Positions 676-50,783 of a stretch of DNA of 60,710 nucleotides are shown in pieces (positions within the stretch are counted from its first letter, which is position 1; each line of letters begins with the position of its first letter). Under the pieces are notes generated by a model. That model saw nothing but the letters and a program-made list of their open reading frames with translations. It searched no databases and was not told the DNA's origin. The translations under genes and the position numbers were made by a program. The DNA is from Alphaproteobacteria bacterium (GTDB lineage Bacteria > Pseudomonadota > Alphaproteobacteria > Rs-D84): contig JAKSTF010000003.1 in assembly GCA_024402715.1 (NCBI GenBank), forward strand, positions 1 to 60,710, written 5' to 3'.

Positions 676-695
676 ATCCCGGCCTACGCCGGGAT
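676..695. repeat. GC-rich palindromic element
   Basis: ATCCCGGC, loop CTAC, GCCGGGAT form a perfect 8-bp stem, preceded by GG and followed by GACGG. A partial echo (GCCGGGATGACGG) occurs about 20 bp further on. This is the common 'GGATCCCGG...CCGGGATGAC' type of intergenic palindrome in Proteobacteria. It could also work as a weak terminator for the operon ending at 829. Confidence 0.6.
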
Positions 696-828
696 GACGG
701 TAAGGGGGGCTGATTGCCGGGATGACGGGGGAGAGGGGGGGATAGTTGATGTGTGATGGTGTGATGTGGGCTGGGGTGGTATATTTTTAATTTATGGGTA
801 TAGTGTGCGTGGGGCAGTGTGGGGTTGG

Positions 829-2013
829 TTACTTACATTCAACCACACCCCAATAAAGGCCGGCCCCGTATTTTACGGCCATTTCATTTTTTGTTGAGTG
901 ACCACAAAATGGTATTCCACCACCACAGGTATATGTTATTCCACCAATTACACATGTGTTTTGATTTGTAAATTCTTCACATGGACATGCAACATTTGTA
1001 CAACCTTGGTTTAGTGTCATAAGATTTCCCAATGCCTTTGGACAACTGGAACTGATGCCACTTAATTTTGACAGGGATGCCGGATTGCGTGAATATTTAC
1101 TGTACATTTCACGACAGCCTGTTGTTTTATTTATTTTCCCATAACCTTGGACCTGTTGATTTGTGCAATTGGTTATGTACCATTTTTTCTGTGTGTCATC
1201 CCATACTTCGTACGTAGATGGGCAATCTGGTTTTGAAACACACGATTTGGGATCATTACCGGTATCATTTTGTGGAACAATACATGCAGAACCACTGCGT
1301 TCATAGCCATCCTGACACCGTTGATATGCGGTGTATGTCTGTTTGCAGGTGATGCTGGTATCTGGCCAATCACAATATTCTTTAATAATTTCATGTTTGT
1401 CATTCAAACATAACCAATCACGTTTACATGCCGATTTTGCGGTTTGTGTTTCACATTTTTTTACACCGCAGGGTTCTATGGCTGTTAGATTTTCTGGAAT
1501 AACATCATCGGTCGTTTCAGAGGCCGTTTTTTCAGGTTGTGAATTTGTTGCTGGCTGTGGTTGTTCTGGTGTTACAATAATTGGTTGGATAATCGTATGT
1601 TTTGATGTTAATAAATCTGGGTATGTTATGCCCAAGCATTTTTTGTATTCAGTAATATCTGTTTGGGTCCAACATTGTTGTTTGAATTCCATCCCCGCCA
1701 TATCTGATTTAGTTTTATTTTGACCCCACACTAAATCGGTTTTTTCTAATTTTGCAGCCGGCTGGCAGATACCGGTATCGTTATCAAAATAATACCCAAT
1801 GTCACATTGTATACATCCCGAACCAAAACCTTCGGGAAAATTTCCAAAACGTGTGTTGGTTAAGATGTCAGTGGGACATTCTTTTACACAATTGGCATTA
1901 TCGTATTGATATTTTGCCGTAACAGTTTCAAGAACGCATTCTGCATATGTACCAATTGGCATCATAAACAACATGGAAAAACAACCGTAAAAAATATTCC
2001 GTTTTTTTAACAT
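829..2013 (-). CDS. Secreted Cys-rich protein of unknown function (394 aa)
   Basis: The first 24 residues form a signal peptide ending GTYA before ECVLE. The mature protein has well over 30 cysteines, with CxxGY/CxxGYY units (CDIGYYFDND, CQDGYERSG), a Thr/Pro/Glu-rich middle around residues 150-180 and a C-terminal Cys-rich half. I recognise no family. The disulfide-like Cys density points to an exported protein. It starts 4 bp after the stop of the 469-aa gene and is the last gene of a three-gene run (5983 to 829). Surface or envelope function is inferred from the signal peptide and Cys pattern. Confidence 0.8.
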   Translation of the reverse strand: MLKKRNIFYGCFSMLFMMPIGTYAECVLETVTAKYQYDNANCVKECPTDILTNTRFGNFPEGFGSGCIQCDIGYYFDNDTGICQPAAKLEKTDLVWGQNKTKSDMAGMEFKQQCWTQTDITEYKKCLGITYPDLLTSKHTIIQPIIVTPEQPQPATNSQPEKTASETTDDVIPENLTAIEPCGVKKCETQTAKSACKRDWLCLNDKHEIIKEYCDWPDTSITCKQTYTAYQRCQDGYERSGSACIVPQNDTGNDPKSCVSKPDCPSTYEVWDDTQKKWYITNCTNQQVQGYGKINKTTGCREMYSKYSRNPASLSKLSGISSSCPKALGNLMTLNQGCTNVACPCEEFTNQNTCVIGGITYTCGGGIPFCGHSTKNEMAVKYGAGLYWGVVECK

Positions 2014-2017
2014 TGTT

Positions 2018-3427
2018 TTATTGTTTGTTTTTTACACATGTCGCGTATTCATCGGGGTCCATTTTTGTCCAACACCAATTTTCATTCCATTTTTGCCCGC
2101 CATTTGTTTTGGTTGGACCGTATAACAGATAGTTTTTTTCCATCGGTTCGGTGGACACGCAGGTGTTTCCCTTAAATATGTCGCCTGTATTACACTTTAC
2201 ACAAACACCATTGCTGTCAATGCCGGTTTTGGCATCGGTATTACATACATCACATGTGTAATCACCTGATTTTGTAAAGGCCATGTCATTATCTTTGCAA
2301 AAATATTTTATACAACCATTTTCGCTTAATGATTCATGAATACTGGCATCAAAATCCGTGGCTGGGAACCCCGGACAAAATTTCGGTTTCGATGCAGGGG
2401 CAGTTTGTGTTTCTTGGGCCGGTTCTGTTTGTGGTTCTGGAATCAGGGCGTCTGGAACAGGTTCTGCTTTTGGGGCAGGTTTACATGTGCCGTCGTCGGC
2501 AATGCCGTTATCGCATTTTACGCAGTCGCGTTTAGCGGTATCTGCAAAACCCTTTGAAGAATCTTTGCATTTGAATTTGCTGCACGTGCCATCAGAGAAT
2601 TCTGTATGTTGTGTGCTGTTAAATTGGTTTTCTGTGTATCCAGTGCACCAATTGGTAACGCAATCCGTTTCAGCTGCATTTGCCGTATATCCGGCGGCAC
2701 ATAATAATTTTTTTGTTCCGGTTTCTGCAACATTATCTACGTAACTGCGTGCAACTTTGTAGTCTTTGCGATGACAGTCAAATTGAACGGGACGGGCAAT
2801 AACACCATGTTTCAAATATTTTACAACCCCCAACACAACATCATGTTCGGGATCTTTGCCCCATTGTTTAAACCCAAGAACATATTTTTCACGTTCGCCA
2901 TCTTTGCCACCAGATGTTTTTAATTTTATATTGTTAAATTTTGTTGAATAATCGGTTGTATCTTTGGTTGTTGCACCGGATACACGTTGTGTGCAACCAT
3001 CACCAGTATAGCCAGATTTACATAATGTAATACAATCATTGGCGGTACATTGGCGATTGCTGCTGCACATTGGATAATAGTAGTTAGTATATGAATACTT
3101 TTCTTTGTCTTTGTTATTACATTGCATTTGATATGGACAAAACTGTGCACCGTTTTCGTATATTTTTTCTGCAATTAATCCAACAACAGCACCTTCGTCG
3201 CCTGGATATGTTCCACATGGCCCGTTGTTACAATCTTTACTGCCATATTTTTGCAAAACACCATCTAAAATAAAACCAGCAGATGTTCCTGTCGCATTTT
3301 GTTCGCCGTTGTACCCCCACCAAGACCATGTTTTAGCATCGGCTACAGTTATTGAATGCGCAGAATATCCAGGTAAAAAAGCAACCGCAAATAGACACCA
3401 TGCAATTAAATAAATATAACGTTTCAT
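2018..3427 (-). CDS. Secreted Cys-rich protein of unknown function (469 aa)
   Basis: The signal peptide occupies about residues 1-23 (hydrophobic YLIAWCLFAVAFLPG, then YSAHS). The N-terminal half holds WSWWGYNGEQ and a Cys-rich region with C-x-S-GYTGDGC. The middle has a CxAGYTAN unit, and a Pro/Glu/Ala-rich linker lies near residues 315-345. The C-terminal part is again Cys-rich and closes with a WCWTKMDPDEYATC motif. A similar 'CWTQTDITEYKKC' motif occurs in the downstream 394-aa protein, so the two share a domain (W..T..D..EY..C). Function is unknown. It sits 24 bp after the 843-aa gene and 4 bp before the 394-aa gene, probably in one transcript. Confidence 0.8.
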   Translation of the reverse strand: MKRYIYLIAWCLFAVAFLPGYSAHSITVADAKTWSWWGYNGEQNATGTSAGFILDGVLQKYGSKDCNNGPCGTYPGDEGAVVGLIAEKIYENGAQFCPYQMQCNNKDKEKYSYTNYYYPMCSSNRQCTANDCITLCKSGYTGDGCTQRVSGATTKDTTDYSTKFNNIKLKTSGGKDGEREKYVLGFKQWGKDPEHDVVLGVVKYLKHGVIARPVQFDCHRKDYKVARSYVDNVAETGTKKLLCAAGYTANAAETDCVTNWCTGYTENQFNSTQHTEFSDGTCSKFKCKDSSKGFADTAKRDCVKCDNGIADDGTCKPAPKAEPVPDALIPEPQTEPAQETQTAPASKPKFCPGFPATDFDASIHESLSENGCIKYFCKDNDMAFTKSGDYTCDVCNTDAKTGIDSNGVCVKCNTGDIFKGNTCVSTEPMEKNYLLYGPTKTNGGQKWNENWCWTKMDPDEYATCVKNKQ

Positions 3428-3451
3428 GTTTTTGTTTCTCCGTATTCATAT

Positions 3452-5983
3452 TTAATTTTGTGGTGCATAACAGGTTGAATTTTCCCAATACCCACCCAAC
3501 GATTTACAACGTTGTTCGTACCATTCATCTGTAAATTCACAGGAATCTGTTTGCGGATTATATTTTGCAACAACTGTATCGCCATCAGAATTCCATTTAT
3601 TACACGCAATGGCTACGCTGTTCGATAAACAATATCCCCAAGATGTGCGTTCAGCCGTTGCGTTATGATCAGAATACAGGGCCAAATAAAACGCACCCAA
3701 TGTTTCTGGGTTCCCACCAGTGGTTTTCAAATGATTATACTCTGTTGGGTTAACCCAATTACCATTTAATTCTGAACATTTTTCCGATAACTGTTCGGTT
3801 AATAGCTCATAAACATTCTTCAATGCCGAACGTGCCTGTTGTTGTGTCAATGCGGGTAAATTATTAAATGTTTGCGGATCCTTTGATGAAGGATCAAAAC
3901 AATTTTCAACCGCATATTTTGTAACAGTTCCTGCTAACGTTTTTGTACTGATACTGTCCAGAGTAACCGACGCCAGGTTATCATCGATGCCGTTACCATA
4001 GTCTAAACTGCGGCAATTCCATGGGTATTTATCGGTTCCATTTGTTGGGGTACATAATTTTTCCAAATAATTGTTTAATGCAACTTCGCACCCTTCGGCG
4101 GCACGTGAGTTATCAACACTGTCAACGAAATTCAATAATGCGGTTAAACCACATGTGCTAGCACCCTCGTCACCACCAATCAAGTGTCCCGCACCATCAA
4201 AATTACAGGCAGTGTTACCATTCGCATTACCATACAATGCGGCACAGGCAACAACCTTTTCCTTGCACATTGCTTTGGATGCATATGCGGCCAGGGCACC
4301 TGCCTGTTGTGATGTTGTCTGATCAAAATCTTTCAAAGCACCGCTTTGTTTGTCGTAACATTCGCGCATTGTTGAAACACAGTTGTTGCGAACTTCTTCG
4401 ACTTTGGCTGCCTGGGCCTGGGCGATTTCAATTATTGCGGTTCGTTTAAATTCATCCCATACGGTTTTGGAAATGTCACGACATGCATCCAATGCCTGGG
4501 TTGCAAACATTTTACGTTTTTCTAAGAAATCATTGAATTCTGGGTTCTTAGATAAAATCTCTGCACCGCCATCCAACTTGATCATATATTCCAATTGAAA
4601 TAAACGGGGACTGTAAATTGGTTCGCCGTTGCTGATATTTACATATGCGCCAGAATAATCCAAACATTTATAATAACCCTTGCCACAGGCTGTATCAGAT
4701 AACAGTGCCACCCGAACCTGATCCAAGCAGTCATTAACGTCTTGGGAGTTATGATTTCTGTATTCTTCCAATCTGGCATCACGTAACATTTTTTCTGCCT
4801 GGCGAACGGTGGCCATAGCGGTTTGTTTGGATGCATCGATCTTTTTGGCGTATGCATTACAATCCTGGGTTATCATAATGCTGTATGCACTTTTGGCCAT
4901 GGTTAATGTTGCATCATTTTCACACTGATCGCTGATCATTGCAACACATTGTGAATTTGATTTATTGTATAATTCTTTACCTTCCAATGTGGTTAAATCA
5001 ACACCGCTGCTGGAAAATGCGCTGCCGTTGTTGCCAAATCCGCCGCCGGACCATATATCACCGATATCAGATGAAAAATCCAACGATAACACGCCCATAG
5101 ATGTGCCGGATGTGGACGATTTTTTTGTGCTTTTCTTTTTCCCGGATAGTAAATCACCAATTTCACTTAATAAATTTGCAGATGCACTGGTGTCGTTTTT
5201 CATTGCTGCTTCGCCGGCAGTCGCAGAATACATTGCGTTTACCTCAGCTGCGGTTTTATCGACGGCATTCAAATTGTTGTTTTCAAAGTTTTGTAATAAA
5301 ATTTTGGCTTGATCTATGGCATCTTCCATGTCACGAAATTCTGTGAAACGTTCACTGCAAAAACATCTGCGATATTTATCATTTGCATTGGCACAAAATT
5401 GATCCATACATGTGGCATATGATTCACGACATGCTGCATATGCCCCCCCAATTTTAGATATATCTGTAAAAACGGCCGTTGCACGTGCCTGGGCGGCGCG
5501 TGATGCGTTTAGCGGTGTGGTGGCACTGCGACCACGTGCAATACCGGGTGTTGTTAACGCTGATATTCCGGAACGTGAAGTATTTGGGGTTGATATTGCG
5601 GAACGGACCGCAGTATTTGATGCAGCACTGCGTAAAGTGCCGGTGACATTTGTTGCGTTTTTGCGTGATGCCACAGAATTTATTGCATTGCGTGATGTTC
5701 CCGAACGTGATGCAGTGGTTGTAACCTTTGATACAATATTTTTTGCCCGTCTGTTTGATACTGTATGGCCGGTACCGGTCGTACCGGTGCGTGTTGTTGT
5801 GTTACCACGTTGTGTTTGTTGATCCACAGAACGCCCCACACGAACATCGGTGCGTCCCGTTGCATCAATTACAGTTGCACCACGTGGATTTGCCGTCTGT
5901 ATCGCATATGCATTGTTGTAAACAAATGCAACCGTCGCACAAATTAATCCAAAACCACAAAATTTATAAATGGAATTTTTCAC
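3452..5983 (-). CDS. Large secreted protein with Arg/Thr/Ser low-complexity head (843 aa)
   Basis: The start is GTG at 5983 with a purine-rich AAAGAGAGA about 8 bp upstream; the nearby ATG at 5990 is out of frame. A signal peptide ending NAYA is followed by about 150 residues of low-complexity Arg/Thr/Ser/Ala/Gly sequence containing 'SRSG'-like units. Next comes a Cys-containing region (ACRESYATCMDQFCAN, RRCFCSERF), a long Ala/Glu/Lys-rich part likely to be helical, and paired Cys throughout. The C-terminus is Cys-rich (CKSLGGYWENSTC). I do not recognise the family. It heads a run of three secreted-protein genes, so a joint envelope role is plausible but unproven. Confidence 0.8.
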   Translation of the reverse strand: MKNSIYKFCGFGLICATVAFVYNNAYAIQTANPRGATVIDATGRTDVRVGRSVDQQTQRGNTTTRTGTTGTGHTVSNRRAKNIVSKVTTTASRSGTSRNAINSVASRKNATNVTGTLRSAASNTAVRSAISTPNTSRSGISALTTPGIARGRSATTPLNASRAAQARATAVFTDISKIGGAYAACRESYATCMDQFCANANDKYRRCFCSERFTEFRDMEDAIDQAKILLQNFENNNLNAVDKTAAEVNAMYSATAGEAAMKNDTSASANLLSEIGDLLSGKKKSTKKSSTSGTSMGVLSLDFSSDIGDIWSGGGFGNNGSAFSSSGVDLTTLEGKELYNKSNSQCVAMISDQCENDATLTMAKSAYSIMITQDCNAYAKKIDASKQTAMATVRQAEKMLRDARLEEYRNHNSQDVNDCLDQVRVALLSDTACGKGYYKCLDYSGAYVNISNGEPIYSPRLFQLEYMIKLDGGAEILSKNPEFNDFLEKRKMFATQALDACRDISKTVWDEFKRTAIIEIAQAQAAKVEEVRNNCVSTMRECYDKQSGALKDFDQTTSQQAGALAAYASKAMCKEKVVACAALYGNANGNTACNFDGAGHLIGGDEGASTCGLTALLNFVDSVDNSRAAEGCEVALNNYLEKLCTPTNGTDKYPWNCRSLDYGNGIDDNLASVTLDSISTKTLAGTVTKYAVENCFDPSSKDPQTFNNLPALTQQQARSALKNVYELLTEQLSEKCSELNGNWVNPTEYNHLKTTGGNPETLGAFYLALYSDHNATAERTSWGYCLSNSVAIACNKWNSDGDTVVAKYNPQTDSCEFTDEWYEQRCKSLGGYWENSTCYAPQN

Positions 5984-8147: not shown

Positions 8148-11100
8148 TCAATATTTACCTTTATTCCCAACCCCGTAAAGTCGGCAGCGGTATTTGCACC
8201 CAATTCAACCCCATTTGGCAATGTAATTGTTGCAACGTGATTGCCTGTATGCAAATTTAAAATAACACGAGTTGGGCCGTTGGGTAATGTAATTAATGCC
8301 TTTTTTACATCGGGTAAAACCGATTGATTATGAATATCTAATGTTATTCGTTTGGCAATTTTTGCAACCCATTGGGCCAATGGCGTTATAGAATCAACAA
8401 AAATAGATACACGATCATCACGATTTGATATCTTTCCAGAAATTACAACAACCGTTTCGGTGGATAAAATCTGGCTGAAGGTTGATGCAGATTCACCAAA
8501 TGCGACGGCATCAATATTTCCAAAACTGTCTGATGCGTTTATGGTTATCATATCTTTGCCAGATTTGGTTCTGCGACGTGAAAAAGATCCAATATTTGCG
8601 GCAATTTGAACTGGTTTGCGATCGTCTAAGTCAATTAAAGTCGCACTGGTGGCCAATTTTGCACGTGTAATTAAATTTTTATATTGATCCAATGGATGGG
8701 CGGATATATAAAATCCCAATGCAGACAATTCATTTTCCAGACGTTGTGCAAAAGTCCATGGTTCGGTCACAGTCAAGCTTTGAATCAATCGGTTTTCATT
8801 GACGTCATCTTCAACTGTATTGGCAAACAATGATAGTAAATTACCACCATCGCGGGATTTTGATGCGTATGATAAAATTGCATCCGCATTCATAAATATT
8901 TTTGCCCGGTTGGGTTCCAAAGAATCTAAGACACCGACTTTTGCAAAGGCTTCTAATATACGTTTGTTCATAATTGGTGCACAACGTTTTGCAAAATCTG
9001 TCAAATTTTTAAATCGACCATTTTTATTTCGTTCTGCAACAATTGCGTCTGTGGCGGTTGTGCCAACGCCTTTGATTGCGGCCAAACCATATATTATTTT
9101 ACCATCGCGGACAATAAATAATGATTCACTTTGATTTATATCTGGGGCAACAATTGGAATATTAAAATTCGATTTTGCGTCGTCAACAAATACAGCTAAT
9201 TGGTCTGTATCGTTTAAATTACTGGACATCGATGCTGCCAAAAATTCAGGTGGATAATTTGCCTTTAAATAGGCGCATTGGTTTGCAACGATAGAATACG
9301 CAATTGCATGTGATTTATTAAATGCATATTTTGCAAATTCTTTGAACTGTTCCCATAATTTTTTTGCGGTATCACGATCCAACGTTTGTTCTTTTTCACA
9401 GCCTTCGAAAAATTTACCCTCTAATTCATTTAATTTTTCGATTAATTTTTTACCCATTGCCTTACGTACAGTATCAGATTGCCCACGTGTAAAACCGGCC
9501 AATGCACGGGTTAATTGCATAACTTGTTCTTGATAAACGATAATGCCATACGTTTCTTTTAAAATTGGTTCAGCCTTTGGATGAACGTATTCAATTTTTT
9601 CTTCACCATGCATACGGGCGATAAATTGTGGAATAAATGCGATTGGGCCGGGGCGGTTTAATGCATTTAATGCAGATATTTCTAAAAAACTGGTTGGATG
9701 CATTTTGCGCAATGTCTGTTGAACAAATTGGGCATCAAATTGGAATATTCCTTCGGTTAAACCACGTTGCCATAAATCCATTGTTTTTTCATCATCAACC
9801 GGTATTTTGTCTAAATCTATATTAATACCACGGGTTTGTTGGATAAGTTTTACCGCATATTTTAAAACGACCAAAGTTTCCAAACCCAAAAAGTCAAATT
9901 TGATTAATCCGGCGGATTCCAAATAATGGCCATCAAATTGGCACGATGGTAATGGATTGGCCGGGTCACGATAAACCGGGGCAATCTTTGTTGTTGGCCG
10001 GTCACCGATAACAACGCCACATGCGTGTTGTCCCAAATTTCGAATTGAACCCTCTAAGGCCTCAGCTACGTTAACAACTTTGTTCATATCGTCATCAGTT
10101 GCCAAAATATCTTGAATTTCACTGGATGCATCAACCGCATCTTTCAGGGTTTTAGCCTCTTGCGGGATTAATTTTGATAATCTGTCCGATTTGGAATATG
10201 GGATACCATACACACGACCAATATCACGAATTGCACCACGGGCCTGTAAACTGCCAAATGTTATGATACGACATACAGAATCATGCCCATATTTATCACA
10301 TATGTATGCCAATACGCGTTCAATACCGGTTGGTTCAAAATCAACGTCAAAATCGGGCATGGATATACGGTCAGGATTTAAAAAACGTTCAAACAACAAA
10401 CCATATTTTAACGGATTAACATGGGTAATACCCAAAGCCCACGCCACAATAGAACCCGCACCAGAACCGCGCCCTGGGCCGGTTAATACATCATTATTTC
10501 TGCACCATTGAATATAATCTGCAACAATCAGAAAATATCCAGGGAAACCCATGCCAATAATGACCCCTAATTCAAATTCAGCCTGTTCATAATATGGGTC
10601 TGTATCTGTGATATTTTGTTCCTGTAAACGTTGAGCCAACCCATCCATTGTATTTTTGCGTAACATCGCACATTCTGTTTCCAAATCGTCACCAAAACGT
10701 GGCAACAGGGGTTTTTCATGAACATTTACCATAAAACCACATCTGTGGGCAATATAAACAGTATTTTCAATTGCTTCGGGTAAATCAGAAAACAATTCGG
10801 CCATTTCTTCGGATGATTTAAAGTATTGTTCAGAAGATTTGCGGTTGCGGTCCGGATCGATAACCTTGGTCTGACCTAATACACACCCCAAAGCATCAGC
10901 CGCTTCATAATCATCAGCACAACCGAATGCGGCATCGTTTGTAGCAACAATTGGTATATTTAATTCACGGGCCAATTTTAAAAATGCGGGTTCTGTTTTG
11001 ATTTCTTCGGTTAATCCATGTCGTTGAATTTCCATATAAAATCTGTCGCCAAATATATCAAGAAATTGTTGGGTAAATGTCTTTGCCAGGGGGGCTTGAT

Positions 11101-11554
11101 TATTTAATATAGCCATACCAATTGGACCTGTATGTGCACCAGATAAACATATTAAACCATCGCTGTGGTTGGATAATTCATCAAATGAAATATATGGTCC
11201 CAAATGATGATTGTCGGTGCGCATGTACATGATGCGGCTGATTTCGCATAAATTTAAATAACCTGTATGGTTTTGTGCTAATAATACGATATGTGATAAA
11301 GATGATTCACGTAAAATTTTAGGATCGGCTGTGTGATGATTTAATGATATTTCTACACCAATAATTGGCTGTAAATGATTTTTCGGCATAACATCTGAAA
11401 ACTCAGCACAGCCAGACATTAAATTAGTGTCTGTTAATGCACAGGCCGACATATTTAAACCCGTGCATAATTTAGGGATATCTTTGACCCGGATGGTCCC
11501 AGCACCGACAGATAAACGTGAATGTGTGCGAAGATGAATAAACTGTTTTTCCAT
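8144..11554 (-). CDS. dnaE: DNA polymerase III alpha subunit
   Basis: This is the replicative polymerase catalytic subunit, 1136 aa from the chosen start (usual length about 1150). It carries an N-terminal PHP domain (residues 1-270), a polymerase core with the acidic pair in PDFDVDF (Asp401, Asp403) and the third acidic site in FDFLGLETL, and a C-terminal OB-fold region. In the PHP domain, HSRLSVGAG and TDTNLMSGCAEF replace the metal-binding residues of proofreading-type PHP domains, so it is probably inactive. The start at 11554 (MEKQFIHLRTHS) fits the family. It has no Shine-Dalgarno, and a promoter ends only 10 bp upstream. Confidence 0.97.
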   Translation of the reverse strand: MEKQFIHLRTHSRLSVGAGTIRVKDIPKLCTGLNMSACALTDTNLMSGCAEFSDVMPKNHLQPIIGVEISLNHHTADPKILRESSLSHIVLLAQNHTGYLNLCEISRIMYMRTDNHHLGPYISFDELSNHSDGLICLSGAHTGPIGMAILNNQAPLAKTFTQQFLDIFGDRFYMEIQRHGLTEEIKTEPAFLKLARELNIPIVATNDAAFGCADDYEAADALGCVLGQTKVIDPDRNRKSSEQYFKSSEEMAELFSDLPEAIENTVYIAHRCGFMVNVHEKPLLPRFGDDLETECAMLRKNTMDGLAQRLQEQNITDTDPYYEQAEFELGVIIGMGFPGYFLIVADYIQWCRNNDVLTGPGRGSGAGSIVAWALGITHVNPLKYGLLFERFLNPDRISMPDFDVDFEPTGIERVLAYICDKYGHDSVCRIITFGSLQARGAIRDIGRVYGIPYSKSDRLSKLIPQEAKTLKDAVDASSEIQDILATDDDMNKVVNVAEALEGSIRNLGQHACGVVIGDRPTTKIAPVYRDPANPLPSCQFDGHYLESAGLIKFDFLGLETLVVLKYAVKLIQQTRGINIDLDKIPVDDEKTMDLWQRGLTEGIFQFDAQFVQQTLRKMHPTSFLEISALNALNRPGPIAFIPQFIARMHGEEKIEYVHPKAEPILKETYGIIVYQEQVMQLTRALAGFTRGQSDTVRKAMGKKLIEKLNELEGKFFEGCEKEQTLDRDTAKKLWEQFKEFAKYAFNKSHAIAYSIVANQCAYLKANYPPEFLAASMSSNLNDTDQLAVFVDDAKSNFNIPIVAPDINQSESLFIVRDGKIIYGLAAIKGVGTTATDAIVAERNKNGRFKNLTDFAKRCAPIMNKRILEAFAKVGVLDSLEPNRAKIFMNADAILSYASKSRDGGNLLSLFANTVEDDVNENRLIQSLTVTEPWTFAQRLENELSALGFYISAHPLDQYKNLITRAKLATSATLIDLDDRKPVQIAANIGSFSRRRTKSGKDMITINASDSFGNIDAVAFGESASTFSQILSTETVVVISGKISNRDDRVSIFVDSITPLAQWVAKIAKRITLDIHNQSVLPDVKKALITLPNGPTRVILNLHTGNHVATITLPNGVELGANTAADFTGLGIKVNIE

Positions 11555-11564
11555 TATGGTTGCG

Positions 11565-11594
11565 ATCATAGCAAAAAATAGCAAAGCAGGGCAA
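11565..11594 (-). promoter_or_regulatory. Promoter of dnaE, nearly leaderless
   Basis: TTGCCC (11589-11594) and TATGAT (11565-11570) are 18 bp apart on the minus strand. The -10 box ends 10 bp before the ATG at 11554, leaving a 5' leader of only a few bases. Confidence 0.45.
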
Positions 11595-11636
11595 CCATAT
11601 ATTTAATAAAAATGGTAAAAAAAATATATAAATAAA

Positions 11637-11658
11637 AATCCCACCAAACGGTGGGATT
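11637..11658 (-). terminator. Terminator of rpsD
   Basis: AATCCCACC, loop AAAC, GGTGGGATT make a 9-bp stem, followed on the minus strand by a T-rich tract. It starts 19 bp after the rpsD stop. Confidence 0.85.
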
Positions 11659-43835: not shown

Positions 43836-43892
43836 TTTTTTGTTCGTTCGTGGTGTGATCATTTAAGCAAAAAAATCGATCCAAAAAAATTA

Positions 43893-43930
43893 TCCCCCAA
43901 AAAGATCAACTTTTTTCGGGGGGTATTTTT
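43893..43930 (+). terminator. Terminator of rpoD
   Basis: CCCCCAAAAAG, loop ATCAA, CTTTTTTCGGGGG followed by TATTTTTT. The stem is long with a one-base bulge. Confidence 0.8.
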
Positions 43931-43941
43931 TATGTAAAAAC

Positions 43942-43969
43942 TTGATTTTATTCCTGGACTGTTTAATAA
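43942..43969 (+). promoter_or_regulatory. Promoter of the small lipoprotein gene
   Basis: TTGATT (43942-43947) and TAATAA (43964-43969) are 16 bp apart, 41 bp before the ATG. Confidence 0.45.
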
Positions 43970-44010
43970 TACAAAACAGGTGTATTTAATTAAACAAAAG
44001 GCGAAATATC

Positions 44011-44217
44011 ATGAAACAGACAATTTTGTTAATAGCGGTTGCATTTACAATGTGTGGATGTTATACATATAAAACAACACATACAATTAAAACAGACGGC
44101 AAAGAATGTTCATACGTAGTCCACAAAAGTGGTAATGCATTGGTTGGATATTCCGAAACCGATTTAACAAATGAAAAACGTTCTGAAAAAGATTGTAATG
44201 CATGGATAAGTAAATAA
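44011..44217 (+). CDS. Small putative lipoprotein (68 aa)
   Basis: A short signal peptide ends in FTMCGCYTYK, where Cys17 fits a lipobox after a small residue. The mature part of about 50 residues is polar, with two more Cys that could pair. A Shine-Dalgarno-like AAAGGCGA precedes the ATG. The gene has its own promoter and terminator. Function is unknown. Confidence 0.7.
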   Translation: MKQTILLIAVAFTMCGCYTYKTTHTIKTDGKECSYVVHKSGNALVGYSETDLTNEKRSEKDCNAWISK

Positions 44218-44234
44218 ATTTTGTTTCAAAAATC

Positions 44235-44263
44235 AAATCCCCACCACTTTGGTGGGGATTTTT
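44235..44263 (+). terminator. Terminator of the small lipoprotein gene
   Basis: AAATCCCCACC, loop ACTTT, GGTGGGGATTT form a perfect 11-bp stem followed by T's. Confidence 0.9.
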
Positions 44264-44547
44264 ATATTTATCTGCCATAAAAATCTAACCAACGTTTTAC
44301 GTTTATACTGCATAAGTAGCATACCAAGTAAAAAATCTCAACAAAATTTTATCTTACACCACCATACAAGCACCAATTTTACAAAATGTATTTTATTGAA
44401 TTTACATATTTATTCTTTATTGCTTAAACATTTTTTCAATTTTAATTCAAATATAAATTTTTATTTGTTCCCAAATCAACAAACAACAAATTCTAACGTT
44501 CGTTAAAACTTTATGCTTATAACGAACATAAACATCGGATAAATACT
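44264..44547. other. AT-rich upstream region of the restriction-like locus
   Basis: This is about 280 bp of strongly AT-rich DNA without a credible gene. The only structured element is the inverted repeat at 44498-44527. This is the left border of the accessory locus. Confidence 0.5.
44498..44527. promoter_or_regulatory. Inverted repeat upstream of the helicase gene, possible operator
   Basis: GTTCGTTA (44498-44505) and TAACGAAC (44520-44527) are a perfect 8-bp inverted repeat with a 14-nt centre, 20 bp before the helicase ATG. The position fits a repressor site or an mRNA hairpin. Confidence 0.5.
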
Positions 44548-47358
44548 ATGTCAAAACAAATGATTATTTATTGGTACACAACCAAGAAACAATTCAATGA
44601 AATTGAACCGGGGCAAACATGGTGTATTGGTGAAGTTGACCCGAACGCCGGTAAATATTTTGGTATGTCCACCGCCAAAGCGGCCGAAACCCGCGTGCGT
44701 GAAGAACTGGGCAAAACCAAAGACGGGGCACGCATAACCTTTGATGATATTACCGATTTAGAATATGATTCATTTGAATTTCCGAACCCAAATAACAAAG
44801 AAAAAGGTATGGATAAAGATATCCATGCAATGTTAAAAAACATTAATTGTAAACAAATTGCCACAGAATGGTTTAATACTACACCTGATGAAATAAAACG
44901 TGTCATAGGGCATTTGGTTGCAGGGACATCACTTGGCACAAAATACGAATTACGCAAAAGACAAAGCAGCGCAATCGGCGCATTCAAGAAAGCATTGGAT
45001 AACAAACAAAAAAAATTTGGTTTATTCGCAATGCCACGATTTGGGAAAACAATATGTTCATTTGAAATGATGAATTTGTTGTTTGAAAGATTTCCAGACA
45101 AAAAATACATATTCTTTATTTCTGCAAAACTGGATGCAGAACAAGCATTGCGCGAAGATTATTATAAATTTGACCAAAGTTGTAATTTCAAATTATGTTT
45201 ATACGATTCTGATACCAAGGTCACATTAGAAGATTTACAAAAAGATAAATATCTGTTCTTTGCCAGCAAACAATGGTTTGATGGTAAAAACTTAGATGAA
45301 ATAAGAAAACGATTTCCCTGTGTAAATCACGACGATTGTGCGGCGGTGTTTTTTGACGAGGCTCATTTTGCCCGCATGACAGATAATGCCCAAGGCACAA
45401 TACGTTTATTAAATCCGTGTATGCAGATTGATATTACCGGCACACCGTTCAGACTAAAAACTAACGAAGATTATGACGATAACAACTCGTATGTTTATAG
45501 TGTTTTGGACGAATATGACGATTATGAAAATTCAGACAACAAAGACGCATTCCGGTTAAAGAATCCTGAAATGGTTTATATAACACCGAAAAATGAATTC
45601 TTTAAAACAGACAGTTCTTTTGGTGAATTTTTTGACAGTGATGACTGCAAAGACAGTATCAAAGAATGGGTGTCCAAAACATTCTATGGCGGAAAATTTA
45701 ATATCGACGGTAAACCATTGCCGATAACTAATGCCATTGTGGTTTTGCCGCCACGCCGTAAATATTGTGATTTGTTTGCTGCGGCTGTTAATGAATTAGT
45801 TCGCGACAACAAATACGCCATCAAATGCACAAAAACCACCACCAAAGATAACGATGACAGGGACTATATTCCTGACAATGAACAACGTTTCAAAGAATGG
45901 AATCGTATATGTAAAAACGAACCAAATTGTTTCCACCTGTTGGTGACAATTGGTAAAGGTTTACAGGCCGTGTCATTTCCCGATTGTCATGCAGTTATAA
46001 TGATGTGTGATATGACATCGCCAGAACAATACATTCAGGCGGCATTTCGCAGCAAAACACCAAACGGTATCAAAAAAGAAGCATATGTTGTTGACTATAA
46101 CAAAGGCCGCACATTACAGGTAATTGATACATTCATCAAGAATCATTTGGCGGTTCGGGCATGTGACGCAAATTACAAAACAGAATATCAACGCGCTTTG
46201 TCGCGTATTGATATCCGTGACCACACACTTGTTCGCCAAGAATATACATTTGAAGAAATATTCCAAACATTCATATCAAATTGGAATATTGAAAGAATTA
46301 CCGACACCATAGATTTTGATATAGAAAGATTGGTTAACAAGATAGATTTAAGCGGGGTTAAATTATCGGATTTACAAAAACCACATCAATTAACATTACA
46401 GTTAACTGAACGTGGCGACGATTATAAGCAATCAGCCCCCAAAACCGAAGAACCAGAAACAGGCACAGATGATGGCGGTGACGGCGGCGCCAAACATTTG
46501 GCACCTGATTGGTTGGAAAAACATATAGAAAAATTGAAATCAGATTTAATTAAATACGGATATATCCCATTTGGTGGCACCGAATCAGATAGATTGAAAG
46601 ATATAAATCCGGATGAAATACAAAGACGTGCATTACGTGTCGGCAAAAATGACGACGAACAAGATGTTTGGTCATATCTGGGCGGTGATGGCGATTGGGA
46701 TGATATATACATTGATGAATCTGGCCTGTCACCATCAACTGTTCGTTGGAAATACGTTATAAATAACAAGTTTGTTAATGTTAGTGGCGAAGGTTCACAC
46801 GGCGAAGGTGCCGCAGATATAAAAAAGGCGAAGGCATTCATAAACGCAATTATTCGTTATTTACCCGCATATTTCTTGGTTTCCGGTGTTCCAAATGGGT
46901 TTGATGATTTCAAAGACCGTTTCGGTCGTCAAACCGTTTCTGAAAAGCACCAAGAACGTCAGTTATTCCGTGAATTTATGGGGATGGGTATAGATTACCG
47001 TTATATCATTGAAATATTGAAAGTATGTGACGCAGGCAGTCGTGAACAAATCATTGCATATTGTGCGGACAAAGTTGCCAAATGTTATACCGCGGATGGC
47101 AAATTGATTCCAGAAAACGTTTTGGAATTACTGTGGGTTTATAAAAAAGACGGCAGCCGCCCTGTGCCAAAAGGGCTAGCCGACATAATGCGCAAAGATA
47201 AAAACTATGACATTGTCGTTTGTGGTGGTTATTGGTTAACAGATAGCACAACAAAAATATATATATATCACCGACAGTTTTGCAGAATCCAAAATCATAA
47301 AAAAATTACGCCCAAATTGTCAGGCCCTGTATTCCAACGACATTTTACAAACACTTGA
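44548..47358 (+). CDS. GIY-YIG-like nuclease/SF2 helicase protein of a restriction-like system
   Basis: Residues about 1-120 resemble the T5orf172/MUG113 branch of GIY-YIG nucleases, with Arg49 (ETRVREEL) and Glu107 (TEWF) as candidate catalytic residues; the GIY and YIG strands are degenerate. The helicase core has Walker A-like AMPRFGKT (161-168), DEAH (270-273), DITGTPFR (295-302) and the motif VI-like QAAFRSK (497-503). The C-terminal half is unassigned. Such proteins power DNA translocation in Type I, III and ISP restriction systems. The frame ends about 30 residues after an (AT)6 run at 47257-47268; one more AT unit would fuse it to the methyltransferase gene that follows. Confidence 0.85.
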   Translation: MSKQMIIYWYTTKKQFNEIEPGQTWCIGEVDPNAGKYFGMSTAKAAETRVREELGKTKDGARITFDDITDLEYDSFEFPNPNNKEKGMDKDIHAMLKNINCKQIATEWFNTTPDEIKRVIGHLVAGTSLGTKYELRKRQSSAIGAFKKALDNKQKKFGLFAMPRFGKTICSFEMMNLLFERFPDKKYIFFISAKLDAEQALREDYYKFDQSCNFKLCLYDSDTKVTLEDLQKDKYLFFASKQWFDGKNLDEIRKRFPCVNHDDCAAVFFDEAHFARMTDNAQGTIRLLNPCMQIDITGTPFRLKTNEDYDDNNSYVYSVLDEYDDYENSDNKDAFRLKNPEMVYITPKNEFFKTDSSFGEFFDSDDCKDSIKEWVSKTFYGGKFNIDGKPLPITNAIVVLPPRRKYCDLFAAAVNELVRDNKYAIKCTKTTTKDNDDRDYIPDNEQRFKEWNRICKNEPNCFHLLVTIGKGLQAVSFPDCHAVIMMCDMTSPEQYIQAAFRSKTPNGIKKEAYVVDYNKGRTLQVIDTFIKNHLAVRACDANYKTEYQRALSRIDIRDHTLVRQEYTFEEIFQTFISNWNIERITDTIDFDIERLVNKIDLSGVKLSDLQKPHQLTLQLTERGDDYKQSAPKTEEPETGTDDGGDGGAKHLAPDWLEKHIEKLKSDLIKYGYIPFGGTESDRLKDINPDEIQRRALRVGKNDDEQDVWSYLGGDGDWDDIYIDESGLSPSTVRWKYVINNKFVNVSGEGSHGEGAADIKKAKAFINAIIRYLPAYFLVSGVPNGFDDFKDRFGRQTVSEKHQERQLFREFMGMGIDYRYIIEILKVCDAGSREQIIAYCADKVAKCYTADGKLIPENVLELLWVYKKDGSRPVPKGLADIMRKDKNYDIVVCGGYWLTDSTTKIYIYHRQFCRIQNHKKITPKLSGPVFQRHFTNT
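47257..47268. repeat. (AT)6 run at the helicase-methyltransferase frame junction
   Basis: Six AT units lie in helicase codons 904-907. After the run, the frame of the methyltransferase gene is open back to this point, with 36 sense codons before its ATG. Adding one AT unit (+2) joins the two frames without a stop. Confidence 0.85.
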
Positions 47359-47377
47359 AAATGAAAGAGAAAACATC

Positions 47378-48214
47378 ATGAAATTCAAATCATTTATAAT
47401 GAATCCCCCCTATGGCAATCTGCATTTGCCAATATTAAAACAGATGATTGAAACAGTTGTTGATAACGGTGGTCATGGTGTTAGTTTACAACCAGTTCGT
47501 TGGTTGCAAGACCCATTAAAAGAATATAAACAAGGGACGGATTATAAGAGATTTGGGCAAGTTTTTAATAGTTATATAGACGATATTGTAATTATTCCTT
47601 CAACCGAATGTGGTAAATTATTTGGTGCTATATTTACAATGGATTTGGGCATATACAGGGCAAAACAAAATGCTGCACTACAATTAGATTCTTTCGCAAA
47701 AGATGAACTATTAGAAAAAATATTAAAAATATTAACAACACAAAGTCAATTTCATACAACAATAAGCAAAAAGATTGAAAAAGAAAAGCGATTTGGAATT
47801 CGTGTAAAAGTTAATGAAATACAAGATAATGGTAGAGCTGGTAACGGCGGTCGTAAATCGTATATAGGATTATATCAAACCTTTTTGGTGATAAATGGTT
47901 TAATTAATGGAAAAGATTGGACAGATTCAATACAAAAGAACCAACATAGCCGTCAAGAAGGCGATATGTTACCATATAGCATAGAGTTTGCAAACGAACT
48001 GTCAGCCAAAAATTTTATAGAATCAACAAAAACAATATTTTTTCAATATTTGCTATTAAAAATGCACCAAGACATACACATGCCAAGTCAATGGTTGCCA
48101 TTTATGAATGATTATTCTGAACCATGGACAGATGAACGGTTTTATGCATATTTTGATATAACACCAGATGAACAAAAAATAATCGAAAAGACGGTTAAAG
48201 ACGCAAAGAAATAA
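47378..48214 (+). CDS. Catalytic half of an N6-adenine DNA methyltransferase (NPPY motif)
   Basis: The motif IV catalytic NPPY is at residues 9-12 (FIMNPPYGNLHL), so there is no room for the AdoMet-binding motif I before it. The rest looks like the second half of Eco57I/Type III-like methyltransferases, ending SQWLPFMNDYSEPWTDERFY and AYFDITPDEQKIIE. The open frame reaches upstream to the (AT)6 run, which suggests it was, or in another phase is, the C-terminal part of the helicase protein. Its stop overlaps the start of the next gene by one base (TAATG). With the next gene it would supply a complete methyltransferase in reversed order. Confidence 0.82.
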   Translation: MKFKSFIMNPPYGNLHLPILKQMIETVVDNGGHGVSLQPVRWLQDPLKEYKQGTDYKRFGQVFNSYIDDIVIIPSTECGKLFGAIFTMDLGIYRAKQNAALQLDSFAKDELLEKILKILTTQSQFHTTISKKIEKEKRFGIRVKVNEIQDNGRAGNGGRKSYIGLYQTFLVINGLINGKDWTDSIQKNQHSRQEGDMLPYSIEFANELSAKNFIESTKTIFFQYLLLKMHQDIHMPSQWLPFMNDYSEPWTDERFYAYFDITPDEQKIIEKTVKDAKK

Positions 48215-48765
48215 TGACACGTAAAAACGGTTTTTATAATTGCGATAATTGTGCGGGGGATTTGTGTTTGACACGTGCCGAATGTAAATCCGCCGGTGCT
48301 TTTCATACACCAAAAAAATTGGCCATGAACATGGCAAAAAAGTTATATCCAGATTACTTAAAATGTAAAACCAAAGCGGAAATTATTGAAAAATTCGGTG
48401 AACGGGGGCGCGAATTTTTAAATGGTTTTAACTTGATTGACCCATGTTGCGGAACGGGTAATTTGTTGGCCGCTGCGATGAATGTATATAAATGGATGGA
48501 TGAAGAAGATTTATATGGGGTTGATATTGACCCACGGGCCGTTGAGTTCTGTATCAAAAAATTTCCCCACGGACATTTTCAGGTCGGTGATTGTTTATTA
48601 GAAGATTTAACAGACGATAAATTTTGGCAACACCCATCCGATGGACTATTCGGGGCATACAAGGCAGAAAAATTACAAGCCGCCACAGCAATATTAAAAG
48701 ACAAAAGTATAAAACAACGTAAAGAATTATCAAACGTTCTTTTACAGGAAAAACATATCAATTGA
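48214..48765 (+). CDS. AdoMet-binding half of an N6-adenine DNA methyltransferase
   Basis: Residues 76-83 are the motif I DPCCGTGN, followed by the motif II-like GVDIDPRAVEFC (102-113) and FQVGDCLLEDL. FHTPKKLAMNMAKKL before it fits motif X. An N-terminal Cys cluster (CDNCAGDLCLTRAEC, residues 10-24) could bind zinc. No NPPY follows: the protein ends in a helical tail at residue 183. The missing catalytic half is the preceding gene, so the two probably act together. It is followed by the second copy of the 42-bp repeat. Confidence 0.82.
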   Translation: MTRKNGFYNCDNCAGDLCLTRAECKSAGAFHTPKKLAMNMAKKLYPDYLKCKTKAEIIEKFGERGREFLNGFNLIDPCCGTGNLLAAAMNVYKWMDEEDLYGVDIDPRAVEFCIKKFPHGHFQVGDCLLEDLTDDKFWQHPSDGLFGAYKAEKLQAATAILKDKSIKQRKELSNVLLQEKHIN

Positions 48766-48791
48766 TTTTATACACCAACATTCTCGCCCGT

Positions 48792-48833
48792 CGTCACCAC
48801 GTTGCAGAACGGGTTGCACCGCAATGCGGACGT
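48792..48833. repeat. 42-bp dispersed repeat, copy 2
   Basis: It matches 611-652 at about 36 of 42 positions. It lies just after the methyltransferase genes, at the right border of the accessory locus. Confidence 0.75.
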
Positions 48834-48857
48834 GATAGTATCCATTACACAAAAATA

Positions 48858-50783
48858 TTATACGTTTCCTTTTAATGATGTATAAATTTTACCTAAATCT
48901 TTTTGCAATATATCCACAATCAAATTGTCACTATTTTCTGTTTTTTTGGCACCAGCTAATATTTTTTCAAATCCACGAACAAATTGTGTTGCCTGGGAAT
49001 GAAATACGCTGTTGTTTTTTAATAATGACTGCAATTGTTTTTTGTCTGTGTTTGCCAAAACCTTGGCAACCCATTGTGAAAACACCGTTTTATCTCCAGC
49101 ATGATATTTTTTCCAAACCATATCTGGAACCTTTGCACTGACCCCCGTCGCCATGACCAAATCATATGATTGATCGTGCATTTTATCAAACATACGTTCG
49201 CATTGCTTTAAAAAATCCGTGCTGCTGATTGTTGCACCAAATGTTTGTGGTACGGGAACCGTTCGTATTGCATCCATCGGGGCCGCAGCACGTGCAACCA
49301 TCATTTGTTTATTTAATGTCTGCATTGTTTCAACGGCCTTGGCGTAATCTGACATCAAATCTATCATTTGTTGACGTGATTGGCCGGCCAAATCTTCCAA
49401 TTTTGCCGATGATTCACCAACGGTGATTGCAGATTCTGAGACACTGCGTTTCATCGAATCAATTTTTTCATTCAAAGATGTTATATTGCGTTCCATATTT
49501 TGTGCAATTTCATTTGAATCGTGTGCAACTCCCGGTAATGTGGCATAATAACGTTCAATCAATTCCGATAACGGCTGTAATTTAGCAGTCGTTTCTTCGG
49601 ACATTTTTATCAATCCCTGTGATTGACCGGTTAACTGTGTATGTGCCTCATTCATTTTAATTAATGTTTCACGCACTCCGGTTGCCATCGCACGCACAGA
49701 TTCAGAAAATGCCCCCGCAGATTTTCGCGTATTTTCCAATGTAACATTGGCGGTGCCAGATACATTTTTCAATTCATTTACAACATCCGCCGCAAACTCT
49801 TTGATTTCTGAATTAAATCTGTTTGTTAATCCGGTTAATTCCGTCGATATACCACGAACCGCATTTTCTGTTGCTGCACCCGAATTTATCAATGCAGTAA
49901 CGATTTCTTGTATTTTTTCATCCTGTTTATTAATTGACGATTCCGCCAAACGAATCTGTCCACCCACCAAATTCGACGTATTTGTTAACGCATTCACCTG
50001 GGCCGATAATTGGCGTTTTAGGCGTTCCATATTATTAACTTGATCTGTTAATAATCTATTATTTTGTTCCATTAATGATTTATAATCTGTGGCCGACGAT
50101 TGAACATTTGCAAAACCTGATGCTGTAGATTGATTCAATGTTTCCATCTGATTACGTAAAACATCCGATTGCGCTGTTAATTCCTTCATTTGATTTTCAT
50201 TTGTTTCAAATGCGGATTTTAGATGTTGCCCCAATACATCACTGGATGAAATCCAGGAATCTATTTGATTATGAATTGCAGATATTTTTTCAGTTGTATC
50301 TTGGGTTGTTGTATCAACTTTGGCCAATGTCATGTTGATTGTATCGGAAAAACGTTCGGCTGCCCCCAATGCATCCGCCCAATCATTTGACATAACAACA
50401 CTGTTTAATCCTGTAACCGTATTATCAAGACGTTGTGTCATAACAGACAATTGCTTAACCGATGCATCAGCCATTCCGACCAATTTTTCATTTTGTATTT
50501 TTATCGACTTTTTCAATTCTTCCGCCGCCGCAATATGCCCCTGCAGTGAATCCGACATAGATTTAAACAATGTTTCAATTGTTGTAATTTCATCCGACAT
50601 AATCGTGCGAAATACACGTGCGGCATCACCAACCTTGGCACGACCGGGGCGGGTTATTATTTCCAATACAGATTCCATAACACGCTGCGTTCGACGCGAT
50701 ACCCAAAACAACGATACCAGTGTTCCCGCCAATAACACCGCAAAAACCGACGCTGTAACCAAATATATCAATTCCCAATCCAT
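48858..50783 (-). CDS. Membrane-anchored coiled-coil protein (641 aa)
   Basis: One N-terminal membrane segment (about 5-28, LIYLVTASVFAVLLAGTLVSLFW split around residue 15) precedes roughly 480 residues of Gln/Asn/Ser/Thr-rich helical sequence with heptad-like spacing, such as ETLFKSMSDSLQGHI and NRLLTDQVNNMERLKRQL. A distinct globular end follows (about 530-641, with DFLKQCERMFDKMHDQSYDL and WKKYHAGDKTVFSQWVAKV). This resembles chemoreceptor or RmuC-like scaffolds in overall shape but lacks their signature motifs. It is divergent from addA. Function is unknown. Confidence 0.75.
   Translation of the reverse strand: MDWELIYLVTASVFAVLLAGTLVSLFWVSRRTQRVMESVLEIITRPGRAKVGDAARVFRTIMSDEITTIETLFKSMSDSLQGHIAAAEELKKSIKIQNEKLVGMADASVKQLSVMTQRLDNTVTGLNSVVMSNDWADALGAAERFSDTINMTLAKVDTTTQDTTEKISAIHNQIDSWISSSDVLGQHLKSAFETNENQMKELTAQSDVLRNQMETLNQSTASGFANVQSSATDYKSLMEQNNRLLTDQVNNMERLKRQLSAQVNALTNTSNLVGGQIRLAESSINKQDEKIQEIVTALINSGAATENAVRGISTELTGLTNRFNSEIKEFAADVVNELKNVSGTANVTLENTRKSAGAFSESVRAMATGVRETLIKMNEAHTQLTGQSQGLIKMSEETTAKLQPLSELIERYYATLPGVAHDSNEIAQNMERNITSLNEKIDSMKRSVSESAITVGESSAKLEDLAGQSRQQMIDLMSDYAKAVETMQTLNKQMMVARAAAPMDAIRTVPVPQTFGATISSTDFLKQCERMFDKMHDQSYDLVMATGVSAKVPDMVWKKYHAGDKTVFSQWVAKVLANTDKKQLQSLLKNNSVFHSQATQFVRGFEKILAGAKKTENSDNLIVDILQKDLGKIYTSLKGNV

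Follow-up and report, generated by a model that had tools for sequence, protein, structure and literature searches.

A putative two-chain adenine methyltransferase, encoded catalytic half first, and its split and fused relatives in phages

Gene arrangement and proposed enzyme

Two neighboring genes of a gut alphaproteobacterium, here called gene A and gene B, likely encode an adenine methyltransferase that is built from two chains, with an active site composed of both, and that belongs to a Type ISP-like restriction system. The window—the whole stretch of 60,710 nt that was analyzed—comes from contig JAKSTF010000003.1 of assembly GCA_024402715.1, and the gene pair lies at 44548–48765. Judged by sequence, the two halves of the methyltransferase reside in two genes with the catalytic half first, and they very probably act together. 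The case is built on the split itself, on an intact relative of the frameshifted gene A, on the adjacency and complementary decay of the two halves in many loci, and on two kinds of natural fusion. Gene A joins a GIY-YIG-like domain, an SF2 helicase, and the NPPY catalytic half of an adenine methyltransferase, and the features of the pair are as follows:

44548–48214, + strand: gene A (inferred), an intact 1227-aa ORF in the relative G150 and alignable to it end to end
44548–44910, + strand: GIY-YIG-like (T5orf172/MUG113) N-terminal domain (Pfam E=0.005, sub-threshold)
44941–45453, + strand: helicase ATPase domain ResIII, PF04851 (5.1e-14)
46996–47064, + strand: possible decayed remnant of motif I in gene A, YRYIIEILKVCDAGSREQIIAYC (position suggested by aligning the predicted structure, here of low confidence, with M.TaqI)
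47257–47268, + strand: (AT)6 run at the frameshift, where the reading frame changes (chance expectation 0.01 in the window)
47378–48214, + strand: NPPY ORF, the C-terminal part of gene A (NPPY profile E=3.8e-41, residues 1–273)
48214–48765, + strand: gene B, AdoMet-binding subunit, 183 aa (N6_Mtase, 23.4 bits)

As assembled, gene A is divided by a frameshift into the ORFs 44548–47358 and 47378–48214. Its helicase domain carries the motifs AMPRFGKT, DEAH, and TGTP, and the PF04851 match (5e-14 in the window, 2e-14 in G150) marks an SF2 helicase/translocase. The GIY-YIG-like nuclease domain stays below the Pfam cut-off in the window, and Pfam found none in G150; for L017, a cousin protein from the window's own genome, the T5orf172 score of 21.3 exceeds the cut-off of 20. 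The NPPY ORF bears motif IV at 47402–47413 and a putative target recognition region. Gene B contains FHTP (48301–48312), LIDPCCGTGN (48433–48462), and YGVDID (48514–48531), that is, motifs X and I–III only.

A preliminary description of this DNA had seen in 47378–48214 and 48214–48765 an adenine methyltransferase split into two genes in reversed order, with NPPY in the first, DPCCGTGN in the second, and a one-base stop/start overlap between them. Both ORFs and both motifs are where it had placed them, and the overlap reads TAATG. It was also right that neither half holds the motif of the other, the NPPY chain having no intact motif I and the second protein no NPPY. The split and its order stand, whereas ORF 47378–48214 appears to be the product of a frameshift and not an independent gene; the alternative that had been offered, with the catalytic half on a helicase fusion and the AdoMet half separate, matches the intact arrangement of G150. 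The proposed profile search of both proteins succeeded for the second, which is an N6_Mtase (PF02384) above the cut-off (23.4 bits, and 25.1 for its G150 homologue, at a Pfam cut-off of 20.4), but not for the first, as the NPPY ORF gave no methyltransferase family match in Pfam, NCBIfam, PHROGs, or PADLOC. Likewise, no Pfam match of the catalytic half to PF07669 (Eco57I) was obtained in the window at E<=1; homologous catalytic halves in the loci L090, L102, L057, and L086 do match this family. PADLOC matches to mad2 and to Type II/IIG methyltransferases cover the generic AdoMet motif only and were not taken as membership. A chance pair of ORFs is rejected by the profile matches, the synteny, and the codon pattern.

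In the proposed enzyme, gene A would bring together nuclease (GIY-YIG-like) and SF2 helicase/translocase domains with the catalytic half of a gamma-type N6-adenine methyltransferase—NPPY, everything from beta-strand 4 onward, and target recognition—with its own AdoMet site presumably decayed. Gene B would provide the AdoMet-binding half (motifs X and I–III) and dock onto gene A, which would complete the active site, such that methylation needs both chains. Gene A might also hold the requirements for restricting unmodified DNA, and the pair could in this way form a restriction-modification-like defence on a Type ISP-like plan.

Intact relative and frameshift of gene A

In G150, a member of the same genus, a single 1227-aa ORF (L015:4094–7777) spans both parts of the window gene A; the next gene overlaps it by 1 bp, as in the window, and encodes a 192-aa motif-I protein of 63–65% identity to gene B. 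In the window, the reading of the helicase ORF 44548–47358 passes, across the (AT)6 run, into frame 2, which is open from 47240, upstream of the ATG at 47378. The end of this helicase ORF (YIYHRQFCRIQ...) is an out-of-frame reading, where frame 2 reads YITDSFAESKIIKKLRPN...ENIMKFKSFIMNPPYG. Skipping two AT units of 47257–47268 yields a window protein of 1221 aa, which is gapless against G150 at the junction and shares ~66% identity with its 1227-aa ORF before the junction and 59% after it; one extra AT unit would likewise keep the frame of gene A. From its sequence, ORF 47378–48214 seems to have originated not as a separate gene but as the tail of the preceding helicase gene, split off by the frameshift.

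The (AT)6 run is the longest AT run of the window and lies exactly at the shift, for which 0.01 occurrences would be expected by chance in the window; G150 does not have it. Downstream of the shift, differences between the window and G150 are most frequent at codon position 3 (0.52, vs 0.20 at position 2), and hence this stretch has evolved as coding sequence. Since the coding pattern is kept, the shift should be of recent date, reversible, or due to an error in the assembly. No other stop or shift interrupts the 3.7 kb of gene A. With gene A broken, the system may be off or dead in this assembly.

Three explanations of the shift have to be weighed, and the likelihoods given for them concern the window copy only and are separate from that of the two-chain enzyme. 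The frameshift could be an assembly or sequencing error with the real gene intact as in G150—a sizeable, if minority, possibility. The assembly is a draft of 63 contigs, the shift sits within a simple repeat, and the coding pattern is intact on both sides of it; a gap of two whole units is, however, atypical for short-read errors. It is somewhat unlikely that the window copy is a decaying pseudogene, with gene A permanently frameshifted and gene B a leftover. Gene B is intact and retains its 63–65% identity to the G150 copy, the 3.7 kb hold no second lesion, and the codon-position pattern past the shift is still that of coding sequence, all of which speak against decay, whereas the frameshift at 47257–47268 and the mobility and rare presence of the gene would suit it. 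Even so, this explanation bears on the window copy and not on the family.

A phase-variation switch is unlikely. Hereby, AT slippage would turn the fusion on, as (AT)4 or (AT)7, or off, as (AT)5 or (AT)6, and a stand-alone catalytic chain like those of the phages L062 or L085 might still be made when it is off, from the conserved internal ATG at 47378. Such switching would fit a frame change located precisely at the window's longest AT run (chance expectation 0.01) and an internal start that falls where NPPY-only proteins of phages naturally begin; it also has a two-unit dinucleotide precedent in the Type III methyltransferase M.MmyCI, which is off with AG12 and on with AG10 (PMC3498834). Yet the single assembly offers one allele only, the run is short and missing in G150, and a length error is conceivable in a draft genome.

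Genomic setting

The gene pair occurs in 2 of 201 genomes of the order, and a class-wide search of 385 genomes gave no additional copy. In the window, positions 43836–48857 form a slot between rpoD and a core gene (48858–50783), a variable insertion site in this genus, which measures ~120 bp in L132 and differs in length among other genus members. The core gene is present in 57 of 59 members; its product has 641 aa, an apparent membrane anchor, and a long coiled coil, with no Pfam match above the cut-off. The G150 copy lies near an RloB-like gene, an AAA ATPase, and an integrase-like gene in what is probably a defence island. Taken together, the rarity of the pair in the order, the variable rpoD slot, and the neighbors in G150 fit a mobile defence gene. 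The G150 surroundings (L015:3–3692 and 10516–11649) include a large predicted P-loop protein with membrane segments.

Other combinations of these parts were also seen. GIY-YIG-helicases of 1104 and 1117 aa are encoded at L017:135–3449 (G000:C34, the window's own genome) and L018:665–4018 (G006); in both, the C-terminus is a motif-I-like half that lacks NPPY and whose motif has decayed (FIDLYMKSG), and in G006 an NPPY gene lies upstream. Three-gene sets of a motif-I-only gene, a methyltransferase with decayed motif I, and a GIY-YIG-helicase are found at L016:2621–7334 (G014) and L013:3011–8125 (phage MT835565).

Relatives in phages and viral contigs

Single-sequence searches with the window proteins found nothing in viral contigs or plasmids, and among the genome contigs only G150; further relatives were reached via G150, via weak tblastn matches in Aeromonas phages, and with profiles. 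By hhalign, G150 and the window connect to the phage NPPY halves with E=6.6e-16 over 259 columns and to the phage motif-I halves with E=6e-5. The preliminary description had known of no system with this layout, which has to be revised: the reversed order also exists in Klebsiella, Vibrio, Shigella, and Aeromonas phages and in many viral contigs. On this sequence evidence, the layout is not unique to the window and appears to be widespread in phages.

Aeromonas phage Ah1 encodes a T5orf172–NPPF chain followed by a motif-I gene. In p083 of Aeromonas phage PX29, a single chain bears NPPY at residue 9 and motif I at about residue 310, after the recognition region, and the same NPPY-first order within one chain is found in the Aeromonas phages Aeh1 and CC2. 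By tblastn, fused proteins of the PX29 type turn up throughout the T4-like phages of Aeromonas, and unfused halves in phages of Klebsiella, Vibrio, Shigella, and Synechococcus; S-CAM7 has a helicase gene between its NPPY gene, which comes first, and its motif-I gene. The NPPY chain of Klebsiella phage KpV477 (L028:2005–3490) is broken into ORFs 2005–3150 and 3158–3490 before its motif-I gene, and that of L052 is broken similarly.

When viral contigs were scanned with a profile, 251 relatives of the motif-I subunit were confirmed; 80 loci were kept, and removal of near-copies left 61 distinct subunits. The motif-I-only subunit directly adjoins an NPPY gene in 45 of these 61, mostly with overlap, the NPPY gene being first in 29 and the subunit first in 16. 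A mechanical test found no adjacent NPPY gene for nine of the 61 subunits, whose full flanks were present. Chance alone does not account for the pairing, as dozens of distinct phage loci have these two halves side by side. Several upstream chains are 1055–1237 aa long with NPPY near residue 780–965, a layout as in the window, and three of the six such chains tested have a Pfam helicase domain; the succession of a helicase–NPPY fusion and a small motif-I gene recurs in L090, L095, and L102.

Two loci differ in how the halves are distributed. In L057 (IMGVR_UViG_3300028364_000095, 676–5450), five tandem NPPY/NIPF-type genes of 269–295 aa precede one AdoMet subunit, and four of the five lack an AdoMet half altogether and start at Eco57I profile position 73. 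This suggests one AdoMet subunit common to several catalytic chains. L086:317–1879 is a natural fusion in the classic order, in which the motif-I half precedes an NPPY half on the same chain; over the first 145 residues, the fusion shares 74% identity with the stand-alone subunit of L060, its motif I is intact, and no partner gene was found, all on one contig, where an assembly artefact is possible. In a tree of the NPPY domain, the window and G150 group with a viral two-gene locus (99/93), the fused PX29 type is nested among NPPY-first loci, and most subunit-first loci form one clade (100/99) with L086 inside.

Division of labor and predicted structures

In all separate small subunits that reach the motif, FT[PNA] is kept, the GxG motif I is intact, and motif II is acidic. 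In many of the catalytic partners, motif I is decayed or absent; in catalytic chains of the subunit-first clade it reads CKSG/TKSG (KSG/KTG), with a motif II resembling GIAITELT. Paired catalytic chains with a seemingly usable motif I are the exceptions L045, L049, L051, L101, and L114. The strongest evidence that the two halves form one active site comes from the fusions (PX29, L086) and the half-genes (L057).

The gene B model (pLDDT 82) aligns with residues 5–153 of CamA (Z 10.3, rmsd 2.4), a match that ends just before the NPPY of CamA. For the C-terminal 460 residues of gene A, the model has a pLDDT of 60, with residues 163–460 better and 1–160 poor (pLDDT <50). Its best match is M.TaqI 22–411 (Z 10.9, rmsd 5.3 over 239 residues, at moderate model confidence), the match to CamA has Z 10.2, and the profile of the catalytic-half family matches CamA with 1.5e-13. 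Near the motif I position, in the poorly modeled part, YIIEILxxCDAGS would be a candidate for the decayed site of gene A, and this region is conserved between the window and G150. Both halves thus appear gamma-type N6-adenine methyltransferase by profile and predicted fold, and a categorically new kind of enzyme was rejected on these grounds.

It is improbable that gene A instead forms a full methyltransferase by itself, its AdoMet site being unusual, and that gene B is a separate methyltransferase-like partner with no shared active site, which regulates or stabilizes gene A or methylates something else. The whole C-terminal model aligns with M.TaqI 22–411, such that the full fold may persist, but the matching N-terminal part is the one with pLDDT <50. 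In the same way, the intact-looking motif I of the five exceptional paired chains is countered by NPPY-only chains that stand beside a subunit without any AdoMet half (L057, L062, L074, and L085) and by the fusions PX29 and L086, which link the subunit straight to the NPPY half.

Implications

No published description of this layout was found in the open-access literature, which is weak evidence of absence. Beyond the window, the data may reflect a large, so far undescribed modular family of adenine methyltransferases in phages and bacteria, whose AdoMet subunit works in trans—a proposition we hold at slightly less than even. One small subunit would serve a single catalytic/recognition chain or several, each having lost its own AdoMet site, and the two-gene forms with or without a decayed half, together with the re-fused forms in both orders, would be living intermediates of a permutation by duplication.

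If true, methyl-donor binding on the one side and base recognition and catalysis on the other would be separable subunits in a widespread enzyme family, and a single AdoMet subunit could serve several specificities. With the series of split, half-less, and fused forms, the permutation-by-duplication model for DNA methyltransferases (PMC5944983) could then be tested directly. Motif-based annotation would miss both halves, many of which are called hypothetical. The occurrence in a bacterial genome would point to a Type ISP-like defence with a different nuclease.

Comparison with known systems

The best structural and profile matches of both halves are the gamma-class enzymes M.TaqI, CamA, and M.BseCI. 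In each of these, a single chain carries both motifs, I ahead of IV, in contrast to the two chains with the catalytic half first described here. Amino-methyltransferases of the beta class have the motif order IV–VIII, TRD, X, I–III, and this order matches the gene pair and PX29 p083: IV, TRD, X, and I follow each other across two genes in the window and within one chain in PX29 and CC2. None of the window, G150, or PX29 proteins matches PF01555 (N6_N4_Mtase). The beta-like order is probably an independent permutation, the kinship in sequence being gamma-type.

PHROG 11371 (unknown function) and PHROG 21201 (DNA methyltransferase) contain the fused permuted protein and the separate motif-I subunit of T4-like phages. 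These proteins have no fused helicase, and the window proteins are tied to them through profiles only.

In M.AquI and M.EcoHK31I, two polypeptides make up one DNA methyltransferase of the m5C type (PMC3404938). Gene A and gene B resemble these natural two-polypeptide enzymes in being adjacent genes with complementary motifs, and differ in that M.AquI and M.EcoHK31I methylate to m5C, are split elsewhere, and hold motifs I–VIII together in the larger subunit.

The Type ISP plan, as in LlaGI and LlaBIII, consists of a nuclease, an SF2 translocase, a gamma-type adenine methyltransferase, and a recognition region (PMC3874165), and the system of gene A and gene B has the same order of parts. Type ISP enzymes are single chains with an Mrr nuclease; Pfam detects no Mrr domain in the window or G150, where the weak matches are to T5orf172/MUG113. 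Their methyltransferase is complete within the same chain, whereas here, and in G150 as well, the intact motif I resides in the AdoMet half encoded by a separate downstream gene. Most likely, the system would work like Type ISP enzymes but is not a member of them, as its nuclease differs and its methyltransferase is split.
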